Below, piece by piece: positions 5,394 to 55,743 of a stretch of DNA of 64,000 nucleotides. Numbering within the stretch: the stretch's first letter is position 1; every line of letters begins with the position of its first letter. The position numbers and the translations under genes are program-made. The notes under the pieces were generated by a model. That model saw only the letters and a list, made by a program, of their open reading frames with translations. It had not been told where the DNA came from and did not search any database. Origin of the DNA: Catellatospora methionotrophica (GTDB lineage Bacteria > Actinomycetota > Actinomycetes > Mycobacteriales > Micromonosporaceae); NCBI RefSeq assembly GCF_011297335.1, contig NZ_JAAOTJ010000006.1, positions 186,001 through 250,000 on the forward strand, read 5' to 3'.

Positions 5394-5458
5394 ATGATCG
5401 TCGTCTCCGGTCAGAAAGTGCGGTCCGGCCTCACTTTCCGACCCGAAACGACGATCAT
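5394..5458. repeat. 65-bp imperfect palindrome, family 1 copy A
   Basis: The element starts ATGATCGTCG and ends CGACGATCAT. The arms pair over about 27 bases with three mismatches around a CGGTCCGGCCT centre. The right edge contains the TGA stop codon of the minus-strand HEAT-repeat gene. The same 65-bp layout recurs at 10284, 14421, 16055, 38391 and 55679. Confidence 0.85.
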
Positions 5459-6729
5459 CGCGAGGCGAGCCGGGTCGCCGCGAGCCGCCGGACCTCCGGG
5501 GACTCGATCGGATCGTGGGCGAGGCCGCCCAGCACCCTCCTGGTGACGTGGTCGAGCTGGACATGGGCCACGGCGAACTCGCGCACCCCGCTCTCGCTGT
5601 CGAGCAGGCCCTGCCCCAGCGGAACCTCCGCGGCCAACGGGTCGACCGCCAGCAGCGCCCGCAGGCAGGCCGCCCGCTCGTACGAGTGCGGAGTCCACCG
5701 CCACATCGCCCGCAACCGCGGCACGGCATCGGCCGCCACGGCACCGAACCGGGCGAAGCCGTCCGCCAGACCGTCGAACCCGCACCAATCCTCGGACTCC
5801 CACTGCCTGTCCCAGGCCTCGACCAGCCGCGGGATGTCCTGCTCGGTCCCGTACGCGGCCAGCAGCGCCACCCCGAACCGGTGCATCCGCCCGTCCTGCG
5901 CCCACCCCCGGGCGTGGCCGACAGCGGCCGAGCCCAGCCGGGAGACCGCGCGATACAGCGACGGCGTCCCGTAGAGGTCCTCGGCGAGATCCAGCAGCCG
6001 CGGCTCCGGCGCGGAGCGGATCAGCTCCCGCAGCGCGGCCGCCCGCTCCCCGCGCGACGCCAGCGGGTCGCCCAACACCGCGACCAGCGCATCGCTGGAC
6101 CGTGGGACGGGCGTCGGCGGGCGCGCCGGGCGTTCGGCGGTGAGCCGGGTCAGGTCCGCGATCCGGGGATGCCGCCGCGCCCAGGTGGCCCACGGGTCCC
6201 GGAACCCGAGCAGATCGTCCTCGTCCTGCGGGGTCAGCCGGGAGAGCAACACGGTGTCGAGGTCGTCCCAGCTCTGCCGGGGCCACCGATCGGTGATCTC
6301 GTCGAGCACCGCCGTCCAGTGTTCCGCCTCGGCGACGGCCCGCCGCAGCGCGTCCACCGCCCGGCGGTCGCCGGTGTGGCCGAGCGTCTCCAGCACACCG
6401 AGCGTGACGTGGAAGGTCCCCTCGTCGTAAGAGGCTCCGTCGTGAAGGTCGAGGTCGCGGTCGGCGGTCCAGAAGAGATCGATTATCGGGGCGAGGTCCA
6501 GGTCGAGGTCGCGGATCAGGCGGGCGAGATAATCGCCGCAGTCGTCGACCTGGCGGTCCCAGCGGTGGTCGCGCGCGATGCAGCCGTACACGGCCTCGGC
6601 CACGCCGGGGTCCCGCCGATCGCGGCGTGCCCGGAGCACCCCGCGCCCGTGCCCGCGTTGCAGGGCTCCCAGCAGGGTCCGGGGATGGTCGTAGTACCAG
6701 TGGTGCCCGTCGTCATCCGGTTCGGTCAT
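5455..6729 (-). CDS. HEAT-repeat-like protein of unknown role
   Basis: A 424-residue acidic protein rich in Trp, Asp and Arg. Repeated ~30-residue helical pairs (GDPLASRGERAAALRELIRS, AVGHARGWAQDGRMHRFGVALLAAY segments, DSESGVREFAVAHVQLDHV, SPEVRRLAATRLA) indicate HEAT or HEAT-like repeats along most of its length, so a protein-binding scaffold is the best guess. There is no signal peptide or membrane segment. No catalytic motif is visible. The gene is flanked by regulators (XRE downstream, GntR divergent) in an accessory stretch inserted into an otherwise conserved neighbourhood. Its stop codon lies inside the edge of a 65-bp palindrome, so the last codon and the stop may have been shaped by that element. 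Confidence 0.55.
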   Translation of the reverse strand: MTEPDDDGHHWYYDHPRTLLGALQRGHGRGVLRARRDRRDPGVAEAVYGCIARDHRWDRQVDDCGDYLARLIRDLDLDLAPIIDLFWTADRDLDLHDGASYDEGTFHVTLGVLETLGHTGDRRAVDALRRAVAEAEHWTAVLDEITDRWPRQSWDDLDTVLLSRLTPQDEDDLLGFRDPWATWARRHPRIADLTRLTAERPARPPTPVPRSSDALVAVLGDPLASRGERAAALRELIRSAPEPRLLDLAEDLYGTPSLYRAVSRLGSAAVGHARGWAQDGRMHRFGVALLAAYGTEQDIPRLVEAWDRQWESEDWCGFDGLADGFARFGAVAADAVPRLRAMWRWTPHSYERAACLRALLAVDPLAAEVPLGQGLLDSESGVREFAVAHVQLDHVTRRVLGGLAHDPIESPEVRRLAATRLASR

Positions 6730-6857
6730 CGCGGATCAGGATGGCTGCCCGTGACCTGTGGGCCAACCGGAATACGAAGTGATCATCCGGTGCTCCGCCG
6801 GCATGACGGCCGTGCTTGGGGGAGATCACGACCCATGGTGGTGTCGTAGAGTGCGAC

Positions 6858-6868
6858 TGTTCCGAACA
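6858..6868. promoter_or_regulatory. GntR operator TGTTCCGAACA upstream of its own gene
   Basis: An 11-base odd palindrome 18 bases before the GntR ATG and just downstream of a TAGAGT -10 candidate (6847-6852), so bound repressor would cover the transcription start. The same sequence recurs twice, in mirrored orientation, right after the gene. This strongly suggests autoregulation. Confidence 0.75.
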
Positions 6869-6885
6869 ACGGAGGGTGGTCTGCG

Positions 6886-7629
6886 ATGGCGGGCGAGCAG
6901 CCAGCGTACCGGCGGGTCGCGGATCAGCTGCGCCGACTCATCCTCAGCGGTGAGTTGGCGGAGGGAACGCGATTGCCCTCCCTGCGGGAGATCGCCACGC
7001 AGTACGGAGTCGCCGTGAGTATCGCGACACGTGCGCTGGACGTGCTGCGAGCTGACGGACTGGTGATGGCGCGGCCCGGTGCGGGTACCTATGTGCGCCG
7101 TTTCGAGCGCATCGTGCGTAGCTCGCCCGGCCGGCTGGCTCGGGATCACTGGGGTGGAGGCGCGGCAATTCAGGACCATGACACGGGCCCGCGAGTGCGG
7201 GCCGTCGACATCGTCATCGGCGATGCGCCAGCTTCCGCTTTCGTAGCGGAGGCGCTGGGCATCGAGCCGGGGACGCCCGTGCTCACCAGGTCCCGACGGT
7301 TCGTGGTGGAGGGTAGGGCGGTGCAGTTGTCCACCTCTTACCTGCCAAGGGAGCTGACCCGCGGAACACGTATCGAGCACACCGACGCCGGTGAGGGTGG
7401 TACGTATGCCCGGCTAGCCGAGCAGGGACTCGCGCTCACCCACTTCACTGAACGGATCGTGGGACGCAGCCCACTGCCTGAGGAGGCTTCGGCGCTCGAT
7501 CTGCTCGCCGACGGAGCGCGCATCCTGGAGATCACGCGCCTGGCGTATGCGGAGGACCGCTGTGTCGAGGTGAACCGTATGGTCCTCGATTCCGACGCCT
7601 ACGAGCTGACCTACTCGTTCCCCTCCTGA
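6886..7629 (+). CDS. GntR-family regulator with UTRA ligand domain
   Basis: A 247-residue protein of the HutC/FarR type. Residues ~1-70 form the winged helix (YRRVADQLRRLILSGELAEG, LPSLREIATQYGVAVSIATRALDVLRADGLV, RPGAGTYVRR). Residues ~90-245 form a UTRA domain (PASAFVAEALGIEPGTPVLTRSRRF, STSYLPREL, ILEITRLAYAEDR). Such proteins usually leave their operator when a small ligand binds the UTRA domain. Three TGTTCCGAACA-type sites flank the gene, one before it and two after it, so it probably represses itself and the small gene at 7710. Base composition is visibly less GC-rich than the housekeeping genes, which fits acquisition by transfer. Confidence 0.87.
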   Translation: MAGEQPAYRRVADQLRRLILSGELAEGTRLPSLREIATQYGVAVSIATRALDVLRADGLVMARPGAGTYVRRFERIVRSSPGRLARDHWGGGAAIQDHDTGPRVRAVDIVIGDAPASAFVAEALGIEPGTPVLTRSRRFVVEGRAVQLSTSYLPRELTRGTRIEHTDAGEGGTYARLAEQGLALTHFTERIVGRSPLPEEASALDLLADGARILEITRLAYAEDRCVEVNRMVLDSDAYELTYSFPS

Positions 7630-7668
7630 CAACTGTTCCGAACAGATGTTGATTGTTCGGAACAGTTG
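7630..7668. promoter_or_regulatory. paired GntR operators forming a 15-bp inverted repeat
   Basis: Two operator sites (7634-7644 and 7654-7664) are arranged as a perfect 15-bp inverted repeat around a 9-base centre. Their centres are 20 bp apart, two helical turns. They begin one base after the GntR stop and lie 42 bases or more before the small gene at 7710. Cooperative repression of that gene is the simplest reading. Confidence 0.75.
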
Positions 7669-7709
7669 TGATTGACTCGTGTCACGCTCCACAAGGGAGG
7701 ACGTGTGGC

Positions 7710-8133: not shown

Positions 8134-8165
8134 TGCCCTTCGTTGCGTACACCCTGGAGGGTTTG

Positions 8166-8546: not shown

Positions 8547-8553
8547 CGGCAGG

Positions 8554-9520: not shown

Positions 9521-10210
9521 ATGGCGGCGCCGACGACGGGCACGAGCTGGGACGGGTACGTCTCCGGCTGGTCGAACTCGCACGACGGGTATGACCCGCG
9601 CCACGCGGGTCCGCTGCTGCGCAAGTGGCTGCGTGCCGCGTTCACGGTCAGCGGAGTGCTGGCCAGGCTCGGCGCGCGGCCCGCGTACGCGATGACGGTC
9701 GCCGCGGCCTGCGCGGTGCTGGTGCCGGTCATCGCCGCCCGTGGTGGGTCGTGGCCCGCGCTGGCGGTTCCGGTGCTGACGCTGGGGCTGGCAGCGGACA
9801 CGGTCGGGCAGACGCTGGCGGTGCTGCTGGGGCGGACCTCCCGGATCGGTTCGTTCTACCGGACGATGCTCGACCGGATGAGCGAGGTGTGCTGGCTGGT
9901 CGCGCTCGGGGCGCTCGGCGCGCAGCAGACGCTGCTGCTGGCCTGTGGGGCGATGGTGTGGCTGCACGAGTACATCCGGGCCCGTGCGGGGGCGGTCGGG
10001 CTGCGTGCGGCGGGTTCGGCGACCATCGGCGACCGGCCCACCCGGGCCTGGCTGACGCTGCTGTCACTGCTGCTCGCGGCCGCCGCGACCGCGCAGGTCG
10101 GGCCTGATCTGGCCGCCGGGGTGGTGACGATGGTGCTGGTCCTGTGGTTCTCCCTGGCGGTGCTCGGCCTCGGCCAGCTCCTCACCGTGGTCCGCAAAGT
10201 CCTGACCTGA
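9521..10210 (+). CDS. CDP-alcohol phosphatidyltransferase-like membrane protein
   Basis: A 229-residue protein with about five membrane helices. The segment LAADTVGQTLAVLLGRTSRIGSF... followed by MLDRMSE lies where CDP-alcohol transferases carry D-x2-D-G-x2-A-R-x8-G-x3-D-x3-D, but several positions differ: the DG pair reads DT, and the last Asp is Glu. It may therefore be a divergent or inactive member of the family. The N-terminal cytosolic part (WDGYVSGWSNSHDGYDPR) is unusual in its Trp/Asp content. It follows metF with no promoter evident. Substrate unknown. Confidence 0.6.
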   Translation: MAAPTTGTSWDGYVSGWSNSHDGYDPRHAGPLLRKWLRAAFTVSGVLARLGARPAYAMTVAAACAVLVPVIAARGGSWPALAVPVLTLGLAADTVGQTLAVLLGRTSRIGSFYRTMLDRMSEVCWLVALGALGAQQTLLLACGAMVWLHEYIRARAGAVGLRAAGSATIGDRPTRAWLTLLSLLLAAAATAQVGPDLAAGVVTMVLVLWFSLAVLGLGQLLTVVRKVLT

Positions 10211-10283: not shown

Positions 10284-10348
10284 ATGATCGCTGTTTGCGG
10301 TCAGAAAGTGCGGTCCCACCTTGGTTTCTGACCGTAAACAGCGATCAT
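10284..10348. repeat. 65-bp imperfect palindrome, family 1 copy B
   Basis: The element starts ATGATCGCTGTTTGCGGTCA and ends with the complementary TAAACAGCGATCAT. The outer ~24 bases of each arm pair almost fully; the centre is unpaired. It lies between the converging genes ending at 10210 and 10385. Compared with copy A, base pairs 8:58 and 9:57 are swapped in a compensating way (T-A/C-G in A, C-G/T-A here). Confidence 0.85.
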
Positions 10349-10384: not shown

Positions 10385-10927
10385 TCAGTGGGTCAGGGGG
10401 AGGGGGCGGCCGAGGACGGCGAAGGGGCGGGGGTCGCCGGGGAAGAGCAGGTGGCGGGCGACGTCGGTGAAGCCGGTGCGGCGGTACAGCCGCCAGGCGC
10501 GGGAGGCCTGCTCGTCGGCCTCGGGAGTGGACAGCAGCGTGGTCGCCGCGCCGGTCATCGCCAGCAGTGCCCGCAGCTGTGCCTCGCCCAGGCCGTGGCC
10601 CTGCGCGGCGGGGCGTACGTGCAGCTCGACGACCTCGAAGCAGTCGGTCAGCCAGCGCTGCCGCGCGTCGGGTTCGAGCACCGAACCGACCTGGTCGTGC
10701 CACCACTGGCCGGGTGCGGAGTGGTAGCCGTAGGCGAAGCCGAGCAGCTGGCCCTGGTCGCTCAGGCTCGCGATGGCCCGGAAGTGCGGCCGCTGCAGGT
10801 GCGTGGTGATGTAACCGCGGCGTACGGCCAGGGCCTGCGGGTGGTAGGACATGGCCTCGCCGAACACGGCCAGCACGTCGTCCATGCGCCGGCCGAGGTC
10901 GTCGGGGGTCCAGGGGACCAGCCTCAT
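10385..10927 (-). CDS. GNAT-family N-acetyltransferase
   Basis: A 180-residue single-domain acetyltransferase. The acetyl-CoA pyrophosphate loop reads VRPAAQGHGLGEAQLRALL (the R/Q-x2-G-x-G/A pattern), preceded by a beta strand FEVVELHV and followed by RAWRLYRRTGFTDV, the conserved C-terminal helix-strand. N-terminal LLGFAYGYHSAPG is the usual substrate-side strand. Substrate unknown. Its start overlaps the stop of the upstream YbaK-like gene by 4 bases, so the two are translated together. In M. tuberculosis a GNAT (Rv2170) sits in the equivalent place, near metF. Confidence 0.82.
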   Translation of the reverse strand: MRLVPWTPDDLGRRMDDVLAVFGEAMSYHPQALAVRRGYITTHLQRPHFRAIASLSDQGQLLGFAYGYHSAPGQWWHDQVGSVLEPDARQRWLTDCFEVVELHVRPAAQGHGLGEAQLRALLAMTGAATTLLSTPEADEQASRAWRLYRRTGFTDVARHLLFPGDPRPFAVLGRPLPLTH

Positions 10928-13472: not shown

Positions 13473-14300
13473 ATGAACGCCATGGCGGGGCTGAGCCAGG
13501 CCCGGTCTATGGAGTTGCAGCACACTGCGGTGCGGCGCGCCAGTGACCTCACCGACGAACAGGCGGGGCTGGGCACCGACCGGATGCTGCCGGTGCTGCC
13601 CGAGCTGCGCGAACTGCTGCCCGGCCGGGGGCTGCGCCGGGGCAGCACCATCGCGGTCGCCTCGACCGGCGCGCCCGGCTGCGGCGGGACCACCTCACTG
13701 CTGCTGGCCCTGCTGTCGGCCGCGTCGTCCGCCGGTTCCTGGTGCGCCGTCGTCGGGCTGCCGAGCCTGGGCATGGCCGCCGCCGCTGAGCTGGGCATCG
13801 CGCTGGACCGGCTCGCCCTCGTGCCGCATCCCGGCCCGCAGTGGACCACCGTCGTCGGAGCGCTGCTCGACGGGTTCGACGTGGTGGTGGCCGCCCCGAC
13901 GGGGCCGGTCGCCGCGTCCGTACGCCTGCAGCTCGCCGCCCGTGCCCGCCAGCGCGGCAGCGTGCTGGTGCCGTTCGGCGGCGAGTGGGAGGGTGCCGAC
14001 GTGGTGCTGTCCCCGGTCGAGGGCATGTGGATCGGGCTGGGCCAGGGGCACGGCAGGCTGCGCGCCCGCGAACTGACCGTCTCGGCCCGGGGCCGGGGAG
14101 CCGCGGGCCGCCCGCGCCGGGTCACCATGTGGCTGCCCTCGTCGTCCGGGCCGACCGTGCCCGTCGCCGAACCCGTGACCATGCCCGTCGCCGAAGTCGT
14201 GGCCGTGCCCGCCGCCGAAGCCGTGGCCGTCTCGCCGTCGCGCCCGCTGCCCCACGCCGAGGGCCAGAGCCGAGGCCACCTGCGCGTGGTGCAGGGATGA
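13473..14300 (+). CDS. imuA': ImuA'-type RecA-like mutasome protein
   Basis: A 275-residue RecA-fold accessory protein of the ImuA'-ImuB-DnaE2 translesion mutasome. Where RecA has its Walker A loop this protein reads GAPGCGGTTSLLLALL, with no Lys, so ATP binding is probably lost, as in other ImuA' proteins. The core reads CAVVGLPSLGMAAAAELGIALDRLALVP and DGFDVVVAAPTGPVAASVRLQLAARAR. The C-terminal ~50 residues are low complexity and encoded by three 24-bp tandem repeats (VPVAEPVT-like units), followed by a basic tail. In mycobacteria the ImuA' C-terminus bridges RecA and ImuB (family knowledge). ATG 13473 follows GGGGGG. Confidence 0.85.
   Translation: MNAMAGLSQARSMELQHTAVRRASDLTDEQAGLGTDRMLPVLPELRELLPGRGLRRGSTIAVASTGAPGCGGTTSLLLALLSAASSAGSWCAVVGLPSLGMAAAAELGIALDRLALVPHPGPQWTTVVGALLDGFDVVVAAPTGPVAASVRLQLAARARQRGSVLVPFGGEWEGADVVLSPVEGMWIGLGQGHGRLRARELTVSARGRGAAGRPRRVTMWLPSSSGPTVPVAEPVTMPVAEVVAVPAAEAVAVSPSRPLPHAEGQSRGHLRVVQG
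14157..14228 (+). repeat. three 24-bp tandem repeats in the imuA' tail
   Basis: Three units of 24 bases encode VPVAEPVT, MPVAEVVA and VPAAEAVA. The reading frame is kept, so unit number can change without a frameshift. The repeats lie in the linker before the extreme C-terminus. Confidence 0.75.
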
Positions 14301-14342
14301 CGGGGGTACCGCAACCTCCGGGAGTGGTGCCGACCTGGTGCG

Positions 14343-14396
14343 GGGGCATCCGGCCGATCATGGTGCCGGCTGGGCGCTGGGGCATCCGGCCGATCA
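14343..14396. repeat. direct repeat between imuA' and the palindrome
   Basis: The 18-base sequence GGGGCATCCGGCCGATCA occurs at 14343-14360 and again at 14379-14396, a period of 36. It lies in the 211-base gap between imuA' and imuB, just before the 65-bp palindrome. No coding role is apparent. Confidence 0.7.
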
Positions 14397-14420
14397 CGGG
14401 CCGGGTGTCGCCGCCCCGCC

Positions 14421-14485
14421 ATGATCGCTGTTTGAGGTCAGAAGACGTGGTCAGGCCGCACTTTCTGACCGTAAACAGCGATCAT
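14421..14485. repeat. 65-bp imperfect palindrome, family 1 copy C
   Basis: The ends are ATGATCGCTGTTTGAGGTCA and TGACCGTAAACAGCGATCAT, pairing over about 20 bases. The right half is nearly identical to copy B, while the centre differs. It separates imuA' from imuB and ends 26 bases before the imuB ATG, so it would lie in the polycistronic mRNA as a hairpin. Confidence 0.85.
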
Positions 14486-14511
14486 GGCGGGTCGCCGCCG
14501 GTGGGGCGTTG

Positions 14512-16041
14512 ATGGGCGACGCCGCCCAGCGCACGATGCTCGTCTGGTGTCCGGACTGGCCGGTCATCGCCGCCGACCTGCTCGACGGGGTGCCAGCGCA
14601 CCGGCCCGTCGCGGTGCTGCACGCGAATCGGGTCGTCGCCTCCTCTGCCGCCGCCCGTGCCGAAGGAGTGCGGCGTGGCCTGCGTAAACGTGAGGCGCAG
14701 AGCAGGTGCCCGCAGGTGATCACGATCGACTACGACCCGGTCCGCGACGTACGGGCCTTCGAGCCGGTGGTCGGCGCGGTCGAGGAGATCGCGGCCTCGG
14801 TGGCGGTGCTGCGGGCGGGCGTGTGCGCGTTCGCCGCGCGGGGTCCGGCGCGCTACTTCGGGGGCGAGGAGGCCGCCGCGGAGCGGATCGTCGAGCAGGT
14901 CGCGCAGCAGTGCGGGGTGGAGGCCCAGATCGGCGTCGCCGACGGGACGTTCGCCGCGCTGCTGGCCGCCCGCGCCGGGCGGATCATCGACCCCGGGCAG
15001 ACCGCCGCCTTCCTGGCCGCGATGCCGGTGACGACCCTGGACCGGCCCGCGCTGACCAGCCTGCTGCGGCGGCTCGGTGTGCATACCCTCGGGGCTTTCG
15101 CGGAGCTGCCGCCCAGTGACGTGCTGGCCCGGTTCGGGCTCGACGCCGCGCTCGCGCAGCGGCTGGCCGCCGGCCGTGACGACCGGCCGCTCGCGGTCCG
15201 CCAGGCCCCGGCGGAGTTGGAGGTCGAGGAGCGCTACGACGAACCCGTGGACCGGGTCGACAGCGCCGCGTTCGCCGCGCGGGCGCTGGCCGAGCGGCTG
15301 CACGAGCGGCTCGCCGGATACGGCATGGCGGCCACCCGGCTGGCCATCAGCGCGGTCACCGCCGACGGCCGCGAGCTGCACCGGGTATGGCGCCACGACG
15401 GCGTGCTGACCGCGCAGGCCATCGCCGACCGCACCCGCTGGCAGCTGGAGGGGTGGATCACCCAGCGCCGGCTGGCGGCCGGGATCGTCGCGCTGCGGCT
15501 CATCCCGGACGGCCTCGTACGGCAGGCCGGGCTGCAGGCCGGGCTGTGGGGCGACGTCGGGCAGGAACGCGACCGGGCCCACCGGGCGATGCACCGGGTG
15601 CAGGGCATCCTGGGCCCGGAGGCGGTGGTGACCGCGGTGCTCGGCGGCGGCCGTGACCCCGGCGCGCAGGCGACCCTGGTGCCCTGGGGCGACGAGCGGG
15701 CCCCGCAGCGCCCGGACGGCCCGTGGCCAGGGCGGCTGCCGCAGCCGTCCCCGGCCGTGGTGCTGCCCGAGCCGCAACCCGTGCAGCTGCTCGACGCCTC
15801 CGGCGAGGTGCTGCGGGTCAGCGCCCGCCTCGACCTCAGCGCCCCGCCCGCCCGCCTGGTCGTCGACGGCCGGACCGTCGAGGTGACCGGCTGGGCGGGC
15901 CCGTGGCCGGTGGAGGAGCAGTGGTGGGACGGCCGCCGCACCCACCGCTCCGCCCGCCTCCAGGTCCTCCTCGCCACCGGCCGCGCCCTCCTGCTCACCC
16001 TCAACGCCGGCCAGTGGTCCATAACCCTCCACTTCGACTGA
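14512..16041 (+). CDS. imuB: ImuB, catalytically inactive Y-family polymerase homologue
   Basis: A 509-residue Y-family fold that acts as the clamp-binding hub of the SOS mutasome. The N-terminal palm reads TMLVWCPDWPVIAAD, where active Y-family enzymes have a D-x-D motif; the SVDE-type acidic pair is also missing, as expected for ImuB. The helix-hairpin-helix region (LTSLLRRLGVHTLGAFAELPPSDVLARFG) and little-finger domain follow. Near residue 390, ATLVPWGDERAP resembles the QLPLWG-type beta-clamp motif. ATG 14512 lies in a gap that also holds a 65-bp palindrome; a second palindrome follows the stop. Confidence 0.9.
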   Translation: MGDAAQRTMLVWCPDWPVIAADLLDGVPAHRPVAVLHANRVVASSAAARAEGVRRGLRKREAQSRCPQVITIDYDPVRDVRAFEPVVGAVEEIAASVAVLRAGVCAFAARGPARYFGGEEAAAERIVEQVAQQCGVEAQIGVADGTFAALLAARAGRIIDPGQTAAFLAAMPVTTLDRPALTSLLRRLGVHTLGAFAELPPSDVLARFGLDAALAQRLAAGRDDRPLAVRQAPAELEVEERYDEPVDRVDSAAFAARALAERLHERLAGYGMAATRLAISAVTADGRELHRVWRHDGVLTAQAIADRTRWQLEGWITQRRLAAGIVALRLIPDGLVRQAGLQAGLWGDVGQERDRAHRAMHRVQGILGPEAVVTAVLGGGRDPGAQATLVPWGDERAPQRPDGPWPGRLPQPSPAVVLPEPQPVQLLDASGEVLRVSARLDLSAPPARLVVDGRTVEVTGWAGPWPVEEQWWDGRRTHRSARLQVLLATGRALLLTLNAGQWSITLHFD

Positions 16042-16054
16042 CCCGTGATCGACG

Positions 16055-16119
16055 GTGATCGCCGTTTCGTGTCAGAAGGTGGAGTCAGGGCGCAGGTCTG
16101 GACACGAAACGGCGATCAT
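16055..16119. repeat. 65-bp imperfect palindrome, family 1 copy D
   Basis: Begins GTGATCGCCGTTTCGTGTCA and ends CACGAAACGGCGATCAT. The terminal pairs 8:58 and 9:57 are both C-G, a third combination relative to copies A and B. It lies between imuB (stop 16041) and the dnaE2 SOS box (16152), so the two palindromes C and D bracket imuB. Confidence 0.85.
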
Positions 16120-16151
16120 GACAGCCTCGGGGAGCGGAGTGAGCTGGGGTT

Positions 16152-16167
16152 TAGTACAGTTGTTCGA
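16152..16167 (+). promoter_or_regulatory. SOS box and -10 of dnaE2
   Basis: TAGTACAGTTGTTCGA matches the LexA consensus at 10 of 12 fixed positions and ends on the base before the GTG start. A -10 element TACAGT (16155-16160) inside the box is followed by 7 bases and the GTG, so the mRNA is probably leaderless and LexA would block the polymerase directly. Confidence 0.7.
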
Positions 16168-19100
16168 GTGGGGTTCGATAGTCAGGGGCAGTTGCCGTGG
16201 GCGGAGCTGGAGCGGCGGATGCGGGGCGGCCAGGTGGTCGATCCGCTGGCCGCCGACGGGGGTGACGCGCCGGGGTTCTCGCGCAAGCGGGAGCCGTATC
16301 GGGCCGAGCCGGTCGAACGGCCGCGGACCACCGTGCCGTACGCGGAGCTGCACTGCCACACCAACTTCAGTTTCCTGGACGGGGCCAGCGACCCGGAGGA
16401 GCTGGTCGCCGAGGCGGTGCGGCTGGGTCTGGAGGCCCTTGCGATCACCGACCACGACGGGTTCTACGGGGTGGTGCGGTTCGCGGAGGCGGCCCGGGAG
16501 CACGGGCTGCCCACGGTGTTCGGGGCGGAGCTGAACCTGGCCGGGCTGCCGCGCGGCGGGGGAGCGCCCGACCCGGCGGGCACCCACCTGCTGGCGCTGG
16601 CCCGGGGACCGCAGGGCTACGCGAACCTGGCCCGCACCCTGTCCGAGGCGCACCTGCTGGGCGGCGAGAAAGGGCGGCCGTCCTACGAGCTGGGGAAGAT
16701 CGCCGAGACGCTGAACGGGCAGGCGGTGATCCTGACCGGGTGCCGCAAGGGCGCGGTGCCGCACGCGCTGCTCACCGAGGGTGTCGATGCGGCGGCGCGG
16801 GAGCTGGACCGGCTCGCCGACCTGTTCGGCGCGCAGAACGTGGTGGTGGAGCTGACCGACCACGCCGACCCGTCCGACGGCGACCGCAACGAGGTCCTGG
16901 CGTATCTGGCGCAGCGGCGCGGCCTGCCCGTCGTCGCCACGAACAACGTGCACTACCACGGTCCGGCACGGCGGCGGCTGGCCACGGTGACCGCGGCGGT
17001 GCGCGCCCGCACCAGCCTGGACTCCCTCGACGGCTACCTGCCCGCGGCGGCGACCGCGCACCTGCGCTCGGGCGCGGAGATGGCGGCCCGGTTCGCGGCG
17101 ATGCCGTATCCGGGTACGGACCGGGCGGTGGCGTACGCGGCGGAGCTCGGCAAGCAGCTCGCCTTCGACCTGCGGCTGGTCGCCCCGAAGCTGCCGCCGT
17201 TCACCGAGCCGGACGGCACGCGGGTCGACGAGGTGGCGTTCCTGCGCGAGCGCACCTACGAGGGGGCCGCGCAGCGGTACGGGCCCCGGCAGGCGTACCC
17301 GGAGGCCTACGAGCGGATCGACCACGAGCTGAAGATGATCGAGCAGCTGGAGTTTCCCGGCTACTTCCTGGTGGTGTGGGACATCGTGGAGTTCTGCCGT
17401 AGAAGCGACATCTACTGCCAGGGGCGGGGGTCGGCGGCGAACTCGGCGGTCTGCTACGCGCTGCGGATCACCAACGTGGACCCGGTCGGCGGGGAGGGCG
17501 GGCTGCTGTTCGAGCGCTTCCTGGCCCCGGAGCGCGACGGGCCGCCCGACATCGACGTCGACATCGAGTCCGACCGGCGCGAGGAGGTCATCCAGTACGT
17601 CTACCGGCGCTACGACCGGCAGCACACCGCGCAGGTCGCCAACGTCATCTCGTACCGGCCGCGCTCGGCGGTGCGCGACGTGGCCCGCGCGTTCGGCTTC
17701 TCGGCCGGGCAGCAGGACGCCTGGTCCAAGCAGATCGACCGCTGGCACGGGGTGTCGGCCAAGGACGTCGACGGCATCCCGGAGCACGTCATGGAGTACG
17801 CCAACGAGCTGCTCAACGCCCCCCGGCACCTGGGCATCCACTCCGGGGGCATGGTCATCTGCGACCGGCCGGTGATCGAGGTGTGCCCGGTGGAGTGGGC
17901 GCGCATGCCGGGCCGGACCGTGCTGCAGTGGGACAAGGACGACTGCGCGGCGGTCGACCTGGTCAAGTTCGACCTGCTGGGCCTGGGCATGCTGTCGGCG
18001 CTGCACTACGCGTTCGACTTCCTGGGCCAGGAGCTGGACCTCGGCGACCTGAAACCCGACGATCCCGAGGTGTACGAGATGCTGTGCCGCGCCGACACCG
18101 TCGGGGTGTTCCAGGTGGAGAGCCGGGCGCAGATGTCGACGCTGCCCCGGCTGCGCCCGGAGCGCTTCTACGACCTGGTGGTGGAGGTGGCGCTGATCCG
18201 GCCCGGCCCGATCCAGGGCGGTTCGGTGCACCCGTTCATCCGGCGCAAGAACGGGCTGGAGCCGGTCGACATCCCGCACCCGCGCATGCACAACGCGCTG
18301 GCCCGGACGCTGGGCGTGCCGCTGTTCCAGGAGCAGATGATGCAGCTCGCCATCGACGTCGCCGACTTCACCCCGGTGGAGGCCGACCAGCTGCGCCGGG
18401 CGATGGGCTCCAAGCGGTCCATGGACAAGATGGAACGGCTGCGCCGGCGGCTGTACGAGGGCATGGCGGGCAACGGGATCGGGCCGGAGCTGGCCGACGA
18501 CATCTTCGGCAAGCTCGCCGCGTTCGCCAACTACGGCTTCCCGGAGAGCCACGCGATCAGCTTCGCCTACCTGGTGTACGCCAGTGCCTGGCTCAAGCGC
18601 TTCCACCCGGCGGCGTTCTGCGCGGCGCTGCTCGGGGCGCAGCCGATGGGCTTCTACTCGCCGCAGTCGCTGGTCGACGACGCCCGGCGGCACGGCGTGC
18701 GGGTGCGCCGCCCGGACATCAACGCGAGCCTGGTCAAGGCCAACATCGAGTGGGCGCCGGGGGACCGGTCGGGCAGCCTGCCGGGGGAGCAGCCGTCGCA
18801 GTGGGGGCTGGGCGGCCCGGCCGTGCGCCTCGGCCTGGACAGCGTGCGCACGCTCGGGGAGGACGTGGCGAAGCGGATCGTCGAGGAGCGCGCGCACGGC
18901 CCGTACGCCGACATGACCGATCTGGCCCGGCGGGCCCGACTGCCCGCGGCCCAGCTGGAGGCGCTGGCCACCGCGGACGCCTTCGCCTGTTTCGGCCTGG
19001 ACCGCAGGGCGGCGCTGTGGGCGGCGGGCGCGGCCGCCACCGACACCCCGGACCGGCTGCCGGGCACGGTCGTCGGCGTGCACGCGCCGACGCTGCCGGG

Positions 19101-19515
19101 CATGGACGCGGTGGACAAGCTGGTCGCCGACGTGTGGGCGACCGGGCTGTCGCCGGACGACCACCCGATCCGGCTGGTACGCGAGCGGCTGGCCGCGCAG
19201 GGAGCGCTGCCGATCGCGCGGCTCACCGGGGTCGAGCACGGGTCCCGGGTGCTGGTCGGCGGCCTGGTCACGCACCGGCAGCGGCCGGCCACCGCGGGCG
19301 GGGTGACGTTCCTGAACCTGGAGGACGAGACGGGGATGCTCAACGTGGTCTGCTCGCCGGGCCTGTGGCTGCGCCACCGCACGGTGGCCCGGGGCAGCGC
19401 AGCGTTACTGGTCCGGGGGCGGCTGGAGTCGTCGTCGGGGGTGCGCAACCTGGTCGCGGACCAGCTCGCGCCGCTGACCGTGGCGACCCCGGTCGCCTCG
19501 CGGGACTTCCGTTAG
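16168..19515 (+). CDS. dnaE2: error-prone DNA polymerase DnaE2
   Basis: A 1115-residue C-family polymerase, the catalytic member of the ImuA'-ImuB-DnaE2 translesion system. The PHP domain begins YAELHCHTNFSFLDGAS and includes ITDHDGFYG. The palm carries CQGRGSAANSAVCYALRIT and the catalytic PPDIDVDIESDRREEV. FANYGFPESHAISFAYLVYASAWLKR and the C-terminal OB fold (VLVGGLVTHRQRPATAGGVTFLNLEDETG) are clear. The shorter length and absent tau-binding tail fit DnaE2 rather than replicative DnaE1. The GTG at 16168 is fixed by the leaderless SOS promoter; an open frame upstream to 16045 would run through the palindrome and is rejected. Confidence 0.95.
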   Translation: MGFDSQGQLPWAELERRMRGGQVVDPLAADGGDAPGFSRKREPYRAEPVERPRTTVPYAELHCHTNFSFLDGASDPEELVAEAVRLGLEALAITDHDGFYGVVRFAEAAREHGLPTVFGAELNLAGLPRGGGAPDPAGTHLLALARGPQGYANLARTLSEAHLLGGEKGRPSYELGKIAETLNGQAVILTGCRKGAVPHALLTEGVDAAARELDRLADLFGAQNVVVELTDHADPSDGDRNEVLAYLAQRRGLPVVATNNVHYHGPARRRLATVTAAVRARTSLDSLDGYLPAAATAHLRSGAEMAARFAAMPYPGTDRAVAYAAELGKQLAFDLRLVAPKLPPFTEPDGTRVDEVAFLRERTYEGAAQRYGPRQAYPEAYERIDHELKMIEQLEFPGYFLVVWDIVEFCRRSDIYCQGRGSAANSAVCYALRITNVDPVGGEGGLLFERFLAPERDGPPDIDVDIESDRREEVIQYVYRRYDRQHTAQVANVISYRPRSAVRDVARAFGFSAGQQDAWSKQIDRWHGVSAKDVDGIPEHVMEYANELLNAPRHLGIHSGGMVICDRPVIEVCPVEWARMPGRTVLQWDKDDCAAVDLVKFDLLGLGMLSALHYAFDFLGQELDLGDLKPDDPEVYEMLCRADTVGVFQVESRAQMSTLPRLRPERFYDLVVEVALIRPGPIQGGSVHPFIRRKNGLEPVDIPHPRMHNALARTLGVPLFQEQMMQLAIDVADFTPVEADQLRRAMGSKRSMDKMERLRRRLYEGMAGNGIGPELADDIFGKLAAFANYGFPESHAISFAYLVYASAWLKRFHPAAFCAALLGAQPMGFYSPQSLVDDARRHGVRVRRPDINASLVKANIEWAPGDRSGSLPGEQPSQWGLGGPAVRLGLDSVRTLGEDVAKRIVEERAHGPYADMTDLARRARLPAAQLEALATADAFACFGLDRRAALWAAGAAATDTPDRLPGTVVGVHAPTLPGMDAVDKLVADVWATGLSPDDHPIRLVRERLAAQGALPIARLTGVEHGSRVLVGGLVTHRQRPATAGGVTFLNLEDETGMLNVVCSPGLWLRHRTVARGSAALLVRGRLESSSGVRNLVADQLAPLTVATPVASRDFR

Positions 19516-33856: not shown

Positions 33857-33908
33857 GAAGGAAGGGCACCTTCTTAACGCTCCGCGTTATGGAAGGTGCC
33901 CTTCCTTC
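33857..33908. terminator. 17-bp perfect hairpin after leuS (GGAAGG-type repeat)
   Basis: The arms at 33857-33873 and 33892-33908 pair over 17 bases without mismatch, and the loop contains a further 5-bp stem (AACGC with GCGTT). It starts 8 bases after the leuS stop. The core resembles the element at 10233. There is no T-run after it on either strand, but its position fits a transcript end. Confidence 0.65.
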
Positions 33909-33921: not shown

Positions 33922-33987
33922 ATGATCTGTTTTTGTGGACGCCTACGGCCCCTATAGGGGCATCCAGCGTCCGCAAAAACGGATCAT
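33922..33987. repeat. 66-bp palindrome, family 2 copy G
   Basis: Begins ATGATCTGTTTTTGTGGACG and ends CGTCCGCAAAAACGGATCAT, around a CCCCTATAGGGG centre that is itself palindromic. The TGA stop codon of the minus-strand DUF559 gene lies in the right edge (33984-33986). A second copy lies just upstream of that gene, in the same orientation. Confidence 0.85.
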
Positions 33988-34937
33988 CGTCCGGGCCAGC
34001 CTGCCGCGCGGAGGGCGGCGCGGACTGTTGCGAGGACCTCGTCCGGCTGGTTGCGGACGGCCCAGGCGGGGAAGCGCAGTACGCGGTCGCCCTTGACCCA
34101 CAGCGCGTTCTGCCGCCGCATGTCGGCCCAGTACGCCCGCACGTCGAGATGCTGCGCGCCGTCGATCTCGGCGTGCACGCCGTAGGGCTCGAACAGCGCG
34201 TCCAGGTAGCGCTGCCGGCCGTCGCCGTCGCAACGGCTGACCTGCAACCGTGGACGGGGCAGGCCACCTCGCCGGCACAACGCCAGGAACTGTGCCTCCG
34301 GGAGCGACCCGGCCCCGCCGGCCGCATCGTTCACCGCGAGCGTGATCACCGGACGACGTCTCACGGAACTCAGCCGGGCCAGCACGGTGCGCAGGTCGGC
34401 GGCGTTGACCAGCCGCTGCTGGACGGCCGCCGCCACGAGGGCGCGGGCCTCGTCGTCGGAGCGTGCCCACTGTGCGGCGTCCACCACCGCACGAGCGGGC
34501 ATCGTGCAGGGCGGGCTGCCGAGATCGTGCACCTCAGTGGCGTCCAGCAGCCTGGTGCGGTGGACGATCACGTCAGACGGCGTGTCCCGATCCCGTGCGG
34601 CGGACGGCATGAGCAGGTGAATCGCGTGGACGTGGAAGCCCCGCAGCCCGAACTGGGCGAGCGCCGTGCGGCCCGCGGTCACCGTGCCCTCCGGTCCGGC
34701 CAGCACGGCGATCCACCGGCGCTGGTCATCGTCACCGGGGGCGGACCGCAGCACGTACACGCCGCGCCGGGGACGCTGCCACCGTCCCGTGGCCAGCCGA
34801 TGCCGGACGGCCTTCTCGGTGAAGTGAGCCAGGGCCTGCGTCCGGCTGAGCACGTCGTGCTGCCGGAAAAGCAGAAAGTCCAGATCGGACGAGTCGTCGT
34901 TCGGCACCGTGCGCACGTCCGAAGAGCCTACGACCAT
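33984..34937 (-). CDS. AbiEi-type winged helix fused to a DUF559 nuclease-like domain
   Basis: A 317-residue protein. Residues ~20-60 (FRQHDVLSRTQALAHFTE, VRHRLATGRWQRPRRGVYVL) match the winged-helix AbiEi antitoxin-type domain. Residues ~215-310 match DUF559: YLDALFEPYGVHAEIDGAQH, then LWVKGDRVLRFPAWAV. This has the Asp and Glu-x-Asp spacing of the PD-(D/E)xK/Vsr nuclease fold. No partner toxin gene is adjacent. The ATG at 34937 is preferred; open frame upstream enters the palindrome. Both ends of the gene abut 66-bp palindromes, so gene plus repeats forms a ~1.09-kb unit that looks like an insertion between leuS and the TVP38 gene. Confidence 0.72.
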   Translation of the reverse strand: MVVGSSDVRTVPNDDSSDLDFLLFRQHDVLSRTQALAHFTEKAVRHRLATGRWQRPRRGVYVLRSAPGDDDQRRWIAVLAGPEGTVTAGRTALAQFGLRGFHVHAIHLLMPSAARDRDTPSDVIVHRTRLLDATEVHDLGSPPCTMPARAVVDAAQWARSDDEARALVAAAVQQRLVNAADLRTVLARLSSVRRRPVITLAVNDAAGGAGSLPEAQFLALCRRGGLPRPRLQVSRCDGDGRQRYLDALFEPYGVHAEIDGAQHLDVRAYWADMRRQNALWVKGDRVLRFPAWAVRNQPDEVLATVRAALRAAGWPGR

Positions 34938-34942
34938 TGAGC

Positions 34943-35008
34943 AAGATCTGTTCTTGTGGACGACCGTAGCCCCTATGGGGGCCGTCAGCGACCACAAAAA
35001 CAGATCTT
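34943..35008. repeat. 66-bp palindrome, family 2 copy H
   Basis: Begins AAGATCTGTTCTTGTGGACG and ends ACCACAAAAACAGATCTT around a CCCCTATGGGGG centre. It lies 5 bases upstream of the DUF559 start codon and 17 bases downstream of the TVP38 gene. The terminal CAAGATC/GATCTTG pairing differs from copy G by matched changes. Confidence 0.85.
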
Positions 35009-38390: not shown

Positions 38391-38455
38391 AAGATCGCGG
38401 TTTGGCGTCGACATCTGCGGTCTGACTCCACTTTTGGACACGAAACGCCGATCAT
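38391..38455. repeat. 65-bp imperfect palindrome, family 1 copy F (degenerate)
   Basis: Begins AAGATCGCGGTTTGGCGTCG and ends GACACGAAACGCCGATCAT. Length is exactly 65, but arm pairing is poorer than in other copies (mismatches at 2:64, 8:58 and 9:57), so this is probably an older or decaying copy. It lies 68 bases after the small gene ending at 38323. Confidence 0.7.
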
Positions 38456-38540
38456 CACCTCGGAACAACACAGAGCGGACCCCGTAACCGACGGGGGATC
38501 GACGGTCATATAACTAAGTGGTACCCAGAGATAGCTGCCA

Positions 38541-38602
38541 AGCACCCTCTGTCACCGCATTTTCACCTCCGGGTGACTCTGCGGAGACGGAGGGTGCTTT
38601 TT
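38541..38602 (+). terminator. intrinsic terminator with internal hairpin upstream of mraZ
   Basis: AGCACCCTC (38541-38549) pairs with GAGGGTGCT (38590-38598), followed by a five-T run. The loop contains a nested GTCACC/GGTGAC stem. A TATAAC -10 candidate at 38509-38514 could start a short (~80 nt) transcript ending here. So this is either the end of a small RNA or the terminator of the upstream small gene. It isolates the mraZ promoter. Confidence 0.65.
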
Positions 38603-38864: not shown

Positions 38865-39296
38865 TTGTTCCTGGGCACCCATACTCCCCGGCTCGACGAC
38901 AAGGGCCGGCTGATCCTGCCCGCTCGGTTCCGTGACGAGCTGGCAGGAGGTGTCGTGATCACCAAAGGGCAGGAGCGCTGTCTCTACGTCTTTCCGACGC
39001 CGGAGTTCCAGCGCATCGCGGGCCAGTTGGCCGAGGCTCCGATGACGCACAAGGCGGCCCGTGCCTACAGCCGGGTCTTCTTCGCGAGCGCGCACGACGA
39101 GATCCCCGACAAGCAGGGCCGGGTAACCATCCCGGGCCACCTGCGGGAGTACGCGGGACTGGATCGGGATCTCGTGGTCATCGGCGCCAGCACCCGCGTC
39201 GAGGTCTGGGACAAGCAGGCGTGGGACGACTACCTCGCGGCGAACGAGGACGAGTTCGCCGACATCGAGGAGGGGGTGCTGCCCGGCGGTCTGTGA
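38865..39296 (+). CDS. mraZ: transcriptional regulator MraZ
   Basis: A 143-residue protein with two AbrB-like MraZ half-domains: [25 protein letters not shown] (DDKGR motif) and [22 protein letters not shown] (DKQGR motif). It forms ring-shaped oligomers that bind the direct repeats in its own promoter and regulate the cell-division and wall cluster. The start is TTG at 38865, because the universally conserved MFLGT begins there and GGAGGGGGTGGGG precedes it. First gene of the dcw cluster. Confidence 0.95.
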
Positions 39297-49099: not shown

Positions 49100-49164
49100 A
49101 TCGACGCTGGCCTATCACATCGAAATAAACGAGATCAAACTCGATGTGATAGGCCAGCGTCGAT
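49100..49164. repeat. perfect 24-bp-stem palindrome between murD and ftsW
   Basis: The arms 49100-49123 and 49141-49164 are exact inverted copies (left arm begins ATCGACGCTGGCC), around a 17-base AT-rich loop. Total length is 65 bp, as in family 1, but the sequence is different. Stem and loop are clearly less GC-rich than the flanking genes, suggesting an inserted element. It begins 10 bases after the murD stop. Confidence 0.85.
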
Positions 49165-53410: not shown

Positions 53411-54225
53411 TGCCGGAGGGGTCGGACGCGGGCGACGGATCGCGGCGGCGCTGGCGGCTCGTACGGGCCGGCACCGACGCCGTTCCGCCGTGGGTTCGGC
53501 AGTTCATGCGGCGTACCCGGATCCCGCTGTCGCGGGCCGGCCGGGTGCGCCGCAACCGGCAGATCGTGGCCCGGCTCGGCCTGGCCGCCGGCGCGCTCAC
53601 CGTGGTCGGCCTGCTGGGCTGGCTCGTGTTCGCCTCCCCGGTGCTCGGGGTGCGCGAGGTCTGGGTGGAGGGCGTGCTGATCCTGGAGCCCGACCAGGTG
53701 CGCGCCGCCGCCGCGGTGCCCGGCGGCACGCCGCTGGCCCGCGTGGACACCGAGGCGGTGCGCGCCCGGGTGGCCGCGCTGGCCCCGGCCCGGGAGGTCA
53801 CCGTGTCCCGCAGTTGGCCGTCCACTCTGGTCATCGAGGTGGTCGAGCGGACGCCGGTCGGCGCGGTGCCGCACGGAAACAAGTATGATCTATTCGATGA
53901 TCATGGTGTGATCTACCGTACGGTCTCCAGCGTCCCGTCCGGAGTCGTGCGGGTGCAGTTGGCGACGCCGGGCCCGCAGGACGTCTCGACCCGGTCCGCG
54001 CTGGAGGTGCTGCGGTCGCTGACCAAGCGGCTGCGCTCCCAACTGGTCACCCTGGTCGTCGAGGGACCGGCCCGGATCCGGCTGGAACTGTCCGGGGACA
54101 AGGTCGTGACCTGGGGCGACGCGGAGAACAGCGACTGGAAGGCGAAGGCGGCGGACTCCCTGCTGGCCAAGCCGGACAAGCGCATCGACGTCAGCGGCGC
54201 ACCGGAGGTCGTGACCCTCGGCTGA
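53410..54225 (+). CDS. ftsQ: cell-division protein FtsQ
   Basis: A 271-residue bitopic protein. A basic cytosolic tail of ~65 residues precedes one membrane helix (LGLAAGALTVVGLLGWLVF), a POTRA domain (VLGVREVWVEGVLILEPDQVRAAAAV, then VTVSRSWPSTLVIEVVERTPVG) and the FtsQ beta domain (YDLFDDHGVIYRTVSS). It is the scaffold of the FtsQ-L-B complex at the septum. It starts in a 1-base overlap with murC. The small region around 53880 (AACAAGTATGATCTATTC) is markedly AT-rich compared with the rest of the gene. Confidence 0.92.
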   Translation: MPEGSDAGDGSRRRWRLVRAGTDAVPPWVRQFMRRTRIPLSRAGRVRRNRQIVARLGLAAGALTVVGLLGWLVFASPVLGVREVWVEGVLILEPDQVRAAAAVPGGTPLARVDTEAVRARVAALAPAREVTVSRSWPSTLVIEVVERTPVGAVPHGNKYDLFDDHGVIYRTVSSVPSGVVRVQLATPGPQDVSTRSALEVLRSLTKRLRSQLVTLVVEGPARIRLELSGDKVVTWGDAENSDWKAKAADSLLAKPDKRIDVSGAPEVVTLG

Positions 54226-54347
54226 CCGGTTCCGCGGCGCTCGGCCGCGGTGGCGTGCGCGAGGTCTCCATAGTGGAAGGCGAGACACGCCGCAGTGGTC
54301 CTTGGATCACAGCGTGCCGACGCTTACGTTTCCGTACAAGACAATGA

Positions 54348-54376
54348 TTGACATAACCGTAAGGCTCTAGTAGAGG
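54348..54376 (+). promoter_or_regulatory. ftsZ promoter
   Basis: TTGACA (54348-54353) and TAGAGG (54371-54376) are 17 bases apart, giving a start near 54383 and a leader of about 127 bases before ftsZ. The 284-base ftsQ-ftsZ gap is otherwise without genes. This promoter would let ftsZ be expressed independently of the upstream cluster. Confidence 0.75.
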
Positions 54377-54509
54377 TTTAGGGTTCCCACCCCGCACCGC
54401 TGCCGGAGTGGCAATGACCGGAGTTCCGCCTCCGCCATTGCGGCAAGCAAGGCCGGGTGGGGGCGCAGCCCTCGCCCTTGTGGCACCAGAGCCTCGAAGG
54501 AAGGGTCCG

Positions 54510-55619
54510 ATGACACCTCCGCACAATTACCTCGCGGTCATCAAGGTCGTCGGCATCGGCGGCGGTGGCGTCAATGCCGTCAACCGCATGATCGAGGTCG
54601 GCCTCAAGGGCGTGGAGTTCATCGCCATCAACACCGACGCGCAGGCGCTGCTGATGAGCGACGCCGACGTCAAGCTCGACGTGGGCCGGGAACTGACCCG
54701 CGGCCTGGGCGCCGGGGCCAATCCCGACGTGGGCAAGAACGCCGCCGAGGACCACCGCGACGAGATCGAGGAGGTGCTCAAGGGCGCCGACATGGTCTTC
54801 GTCACCTGTGGCGAGGGCGGCGGCACCGGCACCGGCGGCGCGCCCGTGGTGGCCAACATCGCCCGCAAGCTGGGCGCGCTGACCATCGGCGTGGTCACCC
54901 GGCCGTTCTCCTTCGAGGGCAAGCGCCGCCAGGTCCAGGCCGAGTCCGGGATCGAGGAGCTGCGCAACCAGTGCGACACGCTCATCGTGATCCCCAACGA
55001 CCGGCTGCTGGCCCTCGGCGACCGCGGCATCACCATGATGGACGCGTTCCGCCAGGCCGACCAGGTGCTGCTGTCCGGTGTCCAGGGCATCACCGACCTG
55101 ATCACCACGCCGGGTCTGATCAACCTCGACTTCGCCGACGTGAAGAGCGTCATGAGCGGCGCGGGCAGCGCCCTGATGGGCATCGGCAGCGCCCGCGGCG
55201 ACAACCGCGCGGTGGAGGCGGCCGAGCGCGCCATCTCCAGCCCGCTGCTGGAGCAGAGCATGGACGGCGCGCGCGGCGTGCTGCTGTCCATCGCGGGCGG
55301 CTCCGACCTCGGCCTGTTCGAGATCAACGACGCGGCGCAGCTGGTCACCGACGCGGCCCACCCGGACGCGAACATCATCTTCGGTGCGGTCATCGACGAC
55401 GCGCTGGGCGACGAGGTGCGGGTCACCGTGATCGCGGCCGGTTTCGACGGCGGCTCGCCGTCCTACAAGCCGGTCGAGATCCCGCGCAAGGTCACCCCGC
55501 CGGTCGAGGCGCCGACCCTGCGCCACCCGACCCCCACCAGCACGCCCCCTGCCCAGTCCCAGCGCAAGGTCCTCTTCGACGACGTAGACGTGCCGGACTT
55601 CCTGAAGAACGGTTCGTAG
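54510..55619 (+). CDS. ftsZ: cell-division GTPase FtsZ
   Basis: A 369-residue tubulin homologue that forms the Z-ring. The N-terminal [18 protein letters not shown] binds GTP; the tubulin signature is [19 protein letters not shown]; the T7 loop [11 protein letters not shown] supplies catalytic Asp. After the core come a ~45-residue linker and the conserved C-terminal peptide [12 protein letters not shown], which in actinobacteria binds SepF. Own promoter upstream. The last 19 bases of the gene recur 42 bases later outside the coding region. The ATG has AAGGAAGGG upstream. Confidence 0.97.
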
Positions 55620-55661
55620 TTCTTCAGGAGCAGTCGGCTCGGCCTGAAGAACGGTTCGTAG
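55601..55661. repeat. duplicated ftsZ tail and hairpin
   Basis: CCTGAAGAACGGTTCGTAG, the last codons and stop of ftsZ, is repeated exactly at 55643-55661 (period 42). TTCTTCAGG (55620-55628) is the complement of the start of the second copy, so a 9-bp hairpin with a 14-base loop can form right after the stop. It may act as a transcript end. Confidence 0.75.
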
Positions 55662-55678
55662 GCAGCCGGTTTCGGCCG

Positions 55679-55743
55679 AAGATCGCTGTTTCGGGTCAGA
55701 AGGTGCGGTCAGGCCGCAGATTTTGCCACGAAATGGCGATCTT
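55679..55743. repeat. 65-bp imperfect palindrome, family 1 copy E
   Basis: Begins AAGATCGCTGTTTCGGGTCA and ends CCACGAAATGGCGATCTT. The terminal pair 2:64 is A-T here versus T-A in copies A-C, a matched change. Pairs 9:57 and 10:56 are T-G wobbles. It occupies the ftsZ-yggS gap where many actinobacteria carry pgeF/yfiH. Confidence 0.85.

Follow-up and report, generated by a model that had tools for sequence, protein, structure and literature searches.

Dispersed 65-bp intergenic palindromes with two rigidly spaced inverted half-sites in Catellatospora

The window analyzed here is a 64,000-nucleotide stretch of the Catellatospora methionotrophica genome (assembly GCF_011297335.1, contig NZ_JAAOTJ010000006.1, positions 186,001 to 250,000), in which a preliminary description had recorded six intergenic palindromes. 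All six are present where it placed them, and each is 65 bp long. They belong to a dispersed family, hereafter F1, whose general invariant is a pair of inverted half-sites, (W)GATCGnnGTTTnnnGTC, lying 27 nt apart. The explanation that we favor, with a probability of roughly 0.4, is that F1 is a copied, non-autonomous population of inverted repeats similar to REPINs (REP doublets forming hairpins; REP, repetitive extragenic palindrome), in which a putative protein would recognize and copy both half-sites as a unit. Copying is supported by species-specific copy numbers, by 65-bp edges with otherwise unrelated flanks, and by incomplete sharing between species.

Copies were counted in the host and in ten congener genomes (G001 to G010) as inverted pairs of the GATCGnnGTTTnnnGTC half-site with 27-nt spacing and at most three mismatches. 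This search returned 246 copies of 65 bp in the host and 32 to 220 in each congener (G001 220, G002 91, G003 56, G004 32, G005 37, G006 150, G007 210, G008 175, G009 68, and G010 54), and a reversed control pattern had no match in the 11 genomes. By length, 1339 matches were found at 65 bp, 18 at 66 bp (28-nt spacing), and 26 at 64 bp (26-nt spacing); thus, the claim of a fixed length holds for 1339 of the 1383 matches at 64, 65 or 66 bp and fails for the remaining 44. Spacings giving other lengths were looked at in the extracted sequence only, over a range of 40–90 bp, where lengths were 65 or 66 bp, plus one of 75 bp that represents the copy at 16055 paired with a chance half-site just upstream. 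One of the eight 66-bp F1 matches of that scan is the window element of family F2 at 33922 and others may also be F2, and the length statistic rests on the 11-genome counts.

The detailed host sample comprised 57 copies in 1.24 Mb (1.243 Mb) of the 8.39-Mb genome, one weak 64-nt match (L144 11062) being excluded. The flanks of these copies share only repeats of the F8 type (in 8 flanks of 7 copies) and show no complementarity past the 65 bp, and a 30-nt half-site scan of the sampled sequence found one match outside whole elements, scoring below every member. Because the flanks are otherwise unrelated and the half-sites have no solitary occurrence in the sample, the F1 unit is exactly 65 bp.

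A covariance model made from the six window copies (R1) scored them at 65–82 bits, and the next palindromes of the window (33922, 34943, and 49100), which are from other families, at only 20–29 bits. A half-element pattern matched four of the six copies on the + strand, and 38391 also on the - strand; none of 100 dinucleotide shuffles had a match. Among the matches listed at an E value of 1e-6, R1 was found in 11 of 11 genomes of the genus, in 1 of 26 other genomes of the same family (G019, two weak rows), and in 0 of 24 of the same order; the family is almost restricted to the genus. One named locus of Catellatospora vulcania also carries F1. The one F1 copy searched against plasmids and phages had no match, nor did an Rfam search of the window.

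The host consensus half in the wider sample is approximately AWGATCGCYGTTTCGGGTCAGAAnCTGnGGTC. In G008, 175 copies are 65 bp long, one is 66 bp and none is 64 bp, and the 27-nt interior contains little information; its pairing was 0.41, against 0.39 for swapped halves, in 25 listed copies (of 113 at two mismatches). The interiors of G001 (0.517 against a swapped null of 0.539; 50 listed copies of 220) and G007 (0.549 against 0.553; 53 listed copies of 210) likewise paired at chance, whereas in the 57 host copies pairing was modestly better than the null (0.672 against 0.619, standard deviation 0.012). Therefore, covarying pairing across the middle characterizes the host among the genomes examined, and the general features are the two half-sites and their spacing.

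Bases 14–16 differ by clade. In the listed copies the triplet reads CGT in 97 of 100 arms from G001 and in 99 of 106 from G007. Host arms vary at these positions (CGT in 14 of 114). Base 16 is G throughout the 25 listed G008 copies, where base 15 is C in most cases. Listed rows were ranked by mismatches at pattern positions, and bases 8, 9, and 14–16 and the interior lie outside the pattern. Information in the interior averaged 0.98 bits (host), 0.83 bits (G001), and 0.86 bits (G007), so that a recent burst from one master fails to explain the fixed triplet. A changed requirement of a putative trans-acting factor would explain it, and the clade-specific bases fit a recognition factor whose specificity shifts between clades.

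The six window copies have 42–54 of 65 positions self-complementary. Five of them fold at -37.8 to -43.8 kcal/mol (z -7.0 to -10.6), and the copy at 38391 (-17.9 kcal/mol, z -0.9) does not stand out from its shuffles, 38 of 200 folding equally well. In this last copy, pair 2:64 had been read as A-T; it is an unpaired A.A, and the A-T state belongs to 55679. Covariation was examined in 56 host copies, one copy spanning two loci being dropped. Standard pairs made up 84.4% of pair cells, and changes on both sides occurred at 21 of 32 pairs. Cells changed on both sides numbered 138, against 76.1 +/- 8.5 in shuffles and 33–48 in slid controls, so the paired changes that had been noted in the window exceed chance in the host. 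In a separate count, about a fifth of the pairs (387 of 1824) were mismatched. The further proposal of selection on, or copying of, the folded form agrees with this non-random host pairing but not with the listed G001, G007, and G008 copies, whose length of 65 bp is kept with interiors that pair at chance.

Compensated changes were also seen between copies occupying the same gap in different species, with 28 double changes (18 comparisons, 12 gaps) against 8.9 +/- 2.6 for independent changes. Of 16 host comparisons, 14 have an alignable flank, including eight close ones (5–12 differences) and six distant ones. The close comparisons contained eight compensated changes against 3.35 +/- 1.55 (reached in 8 of 2000 simulations) and the distant ones 15 against 6.85 +/- 2.12 (reached in 0 of 2000), and one-sided changes outnumbered them, at 50 and 46, respectively. 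Pairing at 18 variable pairs was 13.3 in convergent, 11.8 in tandem, and 9.25 in divergent gaps (convergent against the rest, p 0.015). On the other hand, base conservation was independent of gene context, at 26.75–27.0 of 28 in all three classes.

Orthologs of host gaps were identified for 205 of 228 gaps in G002, 208 in G010, 87 in G006, and fewer elsewhere, gaps without alignable neighbors being excluded. For the host F1 gaps, 44 orthologous gaps were compared: F1 was intact in 16, absent from 26, and of intermediate form in 2. Of the host F1 gaps considered, G002 shared the element in 9 of 19, G010 in 4 of 19, and G006 in 4 of 8, the flanking genes being about 92.5% identical. Seven further aligned gaps (five F1, two F3) showed imprecise differences, and in several of them relatives carry another hairpin. 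In only 3 of 16 cases did copies from the same gap resemble each other more than they resembled the nearest host paralog; since they are mostly no closer than paralogs, in-place replacement or very fast change may have taken place.

With regard to gene context, 22 of the 57 host copies lie in convergent, 31 in tandem, and 4 in divergent gaps, against 6.9, 29.7, and 20.3 expected from uniform placement in gaps of at least 65 bp (0 of 20,000 draws as extreme), and 24 of the 31 tandem copies are nearer the upstream stop codon. When palindromes of any family were considered in gaps of at least 50 bp, they occupied 76 of the 114 convergent gaps, 89 of the 386 tandem gaps, and 10 of the 179 divergent gaps. 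Such a 3'-end bias is a general trait of REPs and stem-loops in bacteria (PMC3733652, PMC1590033), and therefore placement alone identifies nothing. In the host segment C1:1-400000, F1 density was 1.0 per 100 kb, against 3.7–8.2 in the other sampled pieces, with convergent gaps about equally frequent.

Under the REPIN-like explanation, a putative trans-acting protein would most likely read both half-sites as one unit of fixed geometry and, by analogy with what REP-associated tyrosine transposases (RAYTs) are thought to do for REPINs, would copy this unit round the chromosome, with a different enzyme involved. Copies would be tolerated or retained where promoters stay unbroken, that is, behind genes and chiefly between convergent genes. 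In the host, where the arms also pair through the middle, RNA from either strand could form a long hairpin.

The preliminary description had suggested a REP-like element or miniature inverted-repeat transposable element (MITE) moved by a Y1/RAYT-type transposase. The dispersed family, the sequence-specific arms, and the non-random paired changes agree with this suggestion; movement by a Y1/RAYT enzyme is not supported. The transposase family PF01797 was found in 6 of the 11 genus genomes, where drafts may lack contigs, and not in G001, G004, G006, G008, or G009, which have 220, 32, 150, 175, and 68 copies. Moreover, the nine Y1 loci in the genus (the match plus up to 1.5 kb per side) contained no F1. 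The three host Y1 transposase genes (C1:1168910, C1:658086, and C10:148898), each of 150 aa and with very similar scores, have no F1 near them. The window itself had been described as lacking a carrier transposase; near the copies, no transposase family was found in 20 distinct frames, several of which matched no family whatsoever, so that the statement holds for the near-copy frames covered by the scan. Gene calls came from a codon-usage finder, with family searches as a check near the copies only.

Several results weigh against copying. No copying enzyme was found in the material examined, no autonomous parent with the same ends was found in the 1.24 Mb of host sequence, and the flanks of 81 matches, which may include a few F2, showed no excess of direct repeats of 2–10 bp (z above 2.5) that would mark a target duplication. 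The 57-copy sample contains no near-identical pair, the best agreeing at 59 of 65 positions. In 22 comparisons with relatives whose gap lacks any family element, the host gap exceeded theirs by 88–194 bp 15 times; an excess of 52–87 bp, and thus of 65 bp, never occurred. Clean 65-bp empty sites were not obtained either, the three candidates given by an automatic rule in 373 comparisons being imprecise on inspection; the presence-or-absence test suggested in the preliminary description thus revealed incomplete sharing between species without a precise empty site. In G007, 4 of 62 listed copies (the best-scoring of 210) lie within 5.06–7.39 Mb, where 16.8 are expected, in a stretch picked after inspection and with a whole-chromosome Kolmogorov–Smirnov test that was not significant (p 0.21). 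Finally, in the eight close orthologs the half-site signature had changed at 14 of 192 positions, against a rate of 0.15 at third codon positions (p 0.0009), and this apparent in-place constraint on half-site bases hints at a host function. The signature was not significantly slower than the interior (24 of 208 changed; p 0.17), and in the six distant same-gap copies the corresponding values were 15 of 144 (p 0.07 against 0.15) and 56 of 156. These splits are relied on as fairer, although weaker, than an earlier one (15 of 360 against 126 of 360) whose positions were chosen from paralogs, and the intergenic divergence of 6.9%, taken from equal-length gaps without elements, was set aside as a neutral yardstick because of its bias toward conserved gaps.

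A host function would follow if F1 were the binding site of a host DNA-binding protein, architectural or regulatory, consisting of two inverted half-sites at fixed spacing, with old copies held by selection and 3' gaps being the least harmful places. Although we consider this unlikely, it would accommodate the spacing kept in G008 without interior pairing, the clade-specific bases 14–16, the slow signature of the close orthologs, the equal base conservation in all three gene contexts, and the scarcity of decayed relics (2 of 44 gaps). However, about 250 two-part sites are improbable from point mutation, and copying would therefore be needed too; many copies are unshared between species with such similar flanking genes, and no candidate protein was identified. 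Mutation alone might also generate the paired changes, if template switching within a quasi-palindrome used one arm to rewrite the other and thereby produced covariation without selection or recognition of the fold. Bases 8, 9, and 14–16, which changed at 27 of 80 positions in the close orthologs, about twice the third-codon rate, are in line with such a process, but the mismatched fifth of host pairs implies that correction is inefficient, and the fixed half-sites, spacing, and dispersal are left unexplained. As a full account it is very improbable, and it may be a component of the other explanations.

Another interpretation, which we regard as quite improbable, is that F1 acts in RNA as a 3'-end hairpin with a role in terminating or protecting transcripts, both strands being usable in convergent gaps and the families being interchangeable. 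The preference of palindromes of any family for convergent over tandem over divergent gaps points in this direction, as do the better pairing in convergent gaps, the compensated same-gap changes in all and in close comparisons, the conservation of hairpin presence by gap with another palindrome often replacing a missing F1, and the finding of an ordinary terminator in only 1 of 60 gaps with other families. Yet this interpretation fails to explain the fixed stem bases, the length, and the non-pairing interiors of G001, G007, and G008, and the 3'-end bias is general for REPs and stem-loops, as stated above. No TTT occurs in the right 12-nt flank of any of the 57 copies, and AAA occurs in the left flank of two; terminator-like hairpins were found in 6 of 53 F1 gaps against 29 of 387 gaps without family elements. 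Behind ftsZ, a short hairpin is present in all four species shown, and F1 is intact in only two of them, damaged in one, and absent in one. Furthermore, sense-strand G.U pairs were not clearly favored over A.C across all families (146 against 111 in tandem and 116 against 78 in convergent gaps), and the trend of pairing with gap type was not significant in the other families when F1 was left out (p 0.39).

A large number of dispersed palindromes in bacteria are linked to a RAYT or to a known insertion sequence, and others lack a known mover. ERIC-, RUP- and NEMIS-type palindromes and MITEs are lineage-limited intergenic inverted repeats of nearly fixed size. F1 resembles MITEs in its terminal inverted repeats and differs from such elements in that neither a target duplication nor, in the sample, a parental insertion sequence was seen. 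REPINs and GTAG-tagged REPs with a RAYT are dispersed short palindromes, often with two inverted modules per unit, situated mainly behind genes, between convergent or unidirectional genes (PMC3733652, PMC8049555, PMC3116915). Like the REPINs of Pseudomonas and other bacteria, F1 is a dispersed two-half inverted unit in convergent or tandem gaps. Unlike RAYT-associated REPs, its length is nearly fixed, a Y1 gene was not found in 5 of 11 F1 genomes, and the 57 host copies mostly begin with AWGATCG and have no GTAG or CGTC at their ends; single modules, known for REPs as 20–40 bp singletons, were not seen in the 1.24-Mb sample apart from one low-scoring half-site. CGTC-tagged REPs are described as palindromic repeats seemingly without a dedicated transposase of their own (PMC3733652), and F1 is distinguished from them by the missing CGTC tag and by its 65 bp, against the 20–40 bp described for REPs. 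Inverted DNA-uptake sequences of naturally transformable bacteria are presented as conserved intergenic hairpins and proposed terminators (PMC1590033, PMC2267715); in contrast to these, F1 has a fixed spacing, no T-run, and no half-sites standing alone in the sample. A stable hairpin behind genes is shared with intrinsic terminators by five of the six window copies, but the U-run is not. F1 is accordingly of the broad kind of dispersed intergenic palindromes; it fails the defining RAYT-REP tests made and adds a rigid-spacing, clade-specific recognition signature.

A more far-reaching proposal, which we hold to be doubtful, is that one putative factor reads half-sites at a rigid 27 nt whatever lies between them and shifts its specificity by clade with hundreds of sites in concert, within at least eight interchanging hairpin families. 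Such a genome-wide recognition system was not found in searches of the open-access literature. With its hundreds of copies, the measured rule of spacing, and arm bases specific to the clade, the family offers a handle for finding the putative recognition protein; the comparison of G001 and G007 (CGT) with G008 (mostly nCG) and the host (free) suggests looking for a protein whose DNA-contacting surface varies in parallel. Moreover, the swapping of unrelated hairpin families behind the same genes makes a 3'-end hairpin role testable in high-GC actinomycetes.

Seven more families share such gaps in the extracted sequence: F2 (66 bp in 17 of 18 copies), F3 (65 bp, 32 of 32), F4 (59–60 bp, 11 of 12), F5 (79 bp, 6 of 8), F6 (60 bp, 14 of 16), F7 (59 bp, 18 of 21), and F8 (46 bp, 22 of 27). 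F1, F2, F4, and F5 all start near WGATC. Genomes of the genus contain between 2 and 132 copies of F3, which the 30 further genomes examined lack; F8 has 53 to 219 copies in genus genomes and 63 in one genome of another genus. The families swap between orthologous gaps, and the presence of a hairpin is kept by gap: of the tandem gaps compared between the host and G002, 29 have a hairpin in both, 8 in the host alone, 13 in G002 alone, and 75 in neither. Gaps that lack F1 often contain a different palindrome instead (6 of 9 in G002 and 8 of 14 in G010). In addition, the G002 and G010 gaps orthologous to host C53:333943 and C53:296312 contain an extra hairpin with CGATCTTGCGCG-like arms, outside F1–F8.

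Table 1. Palindromic elements of the window (positions count from its first letter)
Feature	Position	Strand	Context
F1 element, 65 bp	5394..5458	.	between NsdA-family gene (3888-5168, -) and predicted gene without family match (5455-6603, -)
F1 element	10284..10348	.	convergent gap, 9521-10210 (+) / GNAT-like 10385-10927 (-)
F1 element	14421..14485	.	between imuA'-like (13473-14300, +) and imuB-like (14512-16041, +) genes
F1 element	16055..16119	.	between imuB-like and DNA polymerase III alpha (dnaE2-like, 16219-19515, +) genes
F1 element	38391..38455	.	weakest-folding copy; upstream of mraZ (38955-39296, +)
F1 element	55679..55743	.	downstream of ftsZ (54510-55619, +); short hairpin with T-rich tail comes next
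F2 element, 66 bp, related ends ATGATCYGTTTTTGTGGACG	33922..33987	.	
Second F2 element, 66 bp	34943..35008	.	
F3 element, 65 bp, GACGYTGGCCTAT half-sites	49100..49164	.	
Palindrome with F8 half-sites (GGAAGGGCACCTTC)	33857..33908	.	

The neighborhoods of individual window copies (Table 1) differ between species. The gap of copy 5394 also has F1 in G002, G006, and G003 and a damaged F1 in G010. In the gap orthologous to that of copy 10284, F1 is absent in G002, G010, G006, and G005, and the genes there are 3–13 bp apart. An imuA'-imuB-dnaE2-like mutagenesis cassette occupies 13473-19515, and both of its internal gaps hold one F1 each; in most relatives, the imuB-dnaE2 gap (copy 16055) contains other hairpin families (F4, F2, F3 or F6). 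The two F2 elements (33922-35008) enclose one predicted gene (33984-34916, -), and the matching segment in G002 and G007 is a different stretch of about 717 bp with no F2 at its printed ends. Short hairpins with T-rich tails adjoin F1 at 38540-38599 and at about 55769-55808; they are also present in relatives without F1 at these places and represent candidates for ordinary terminators.

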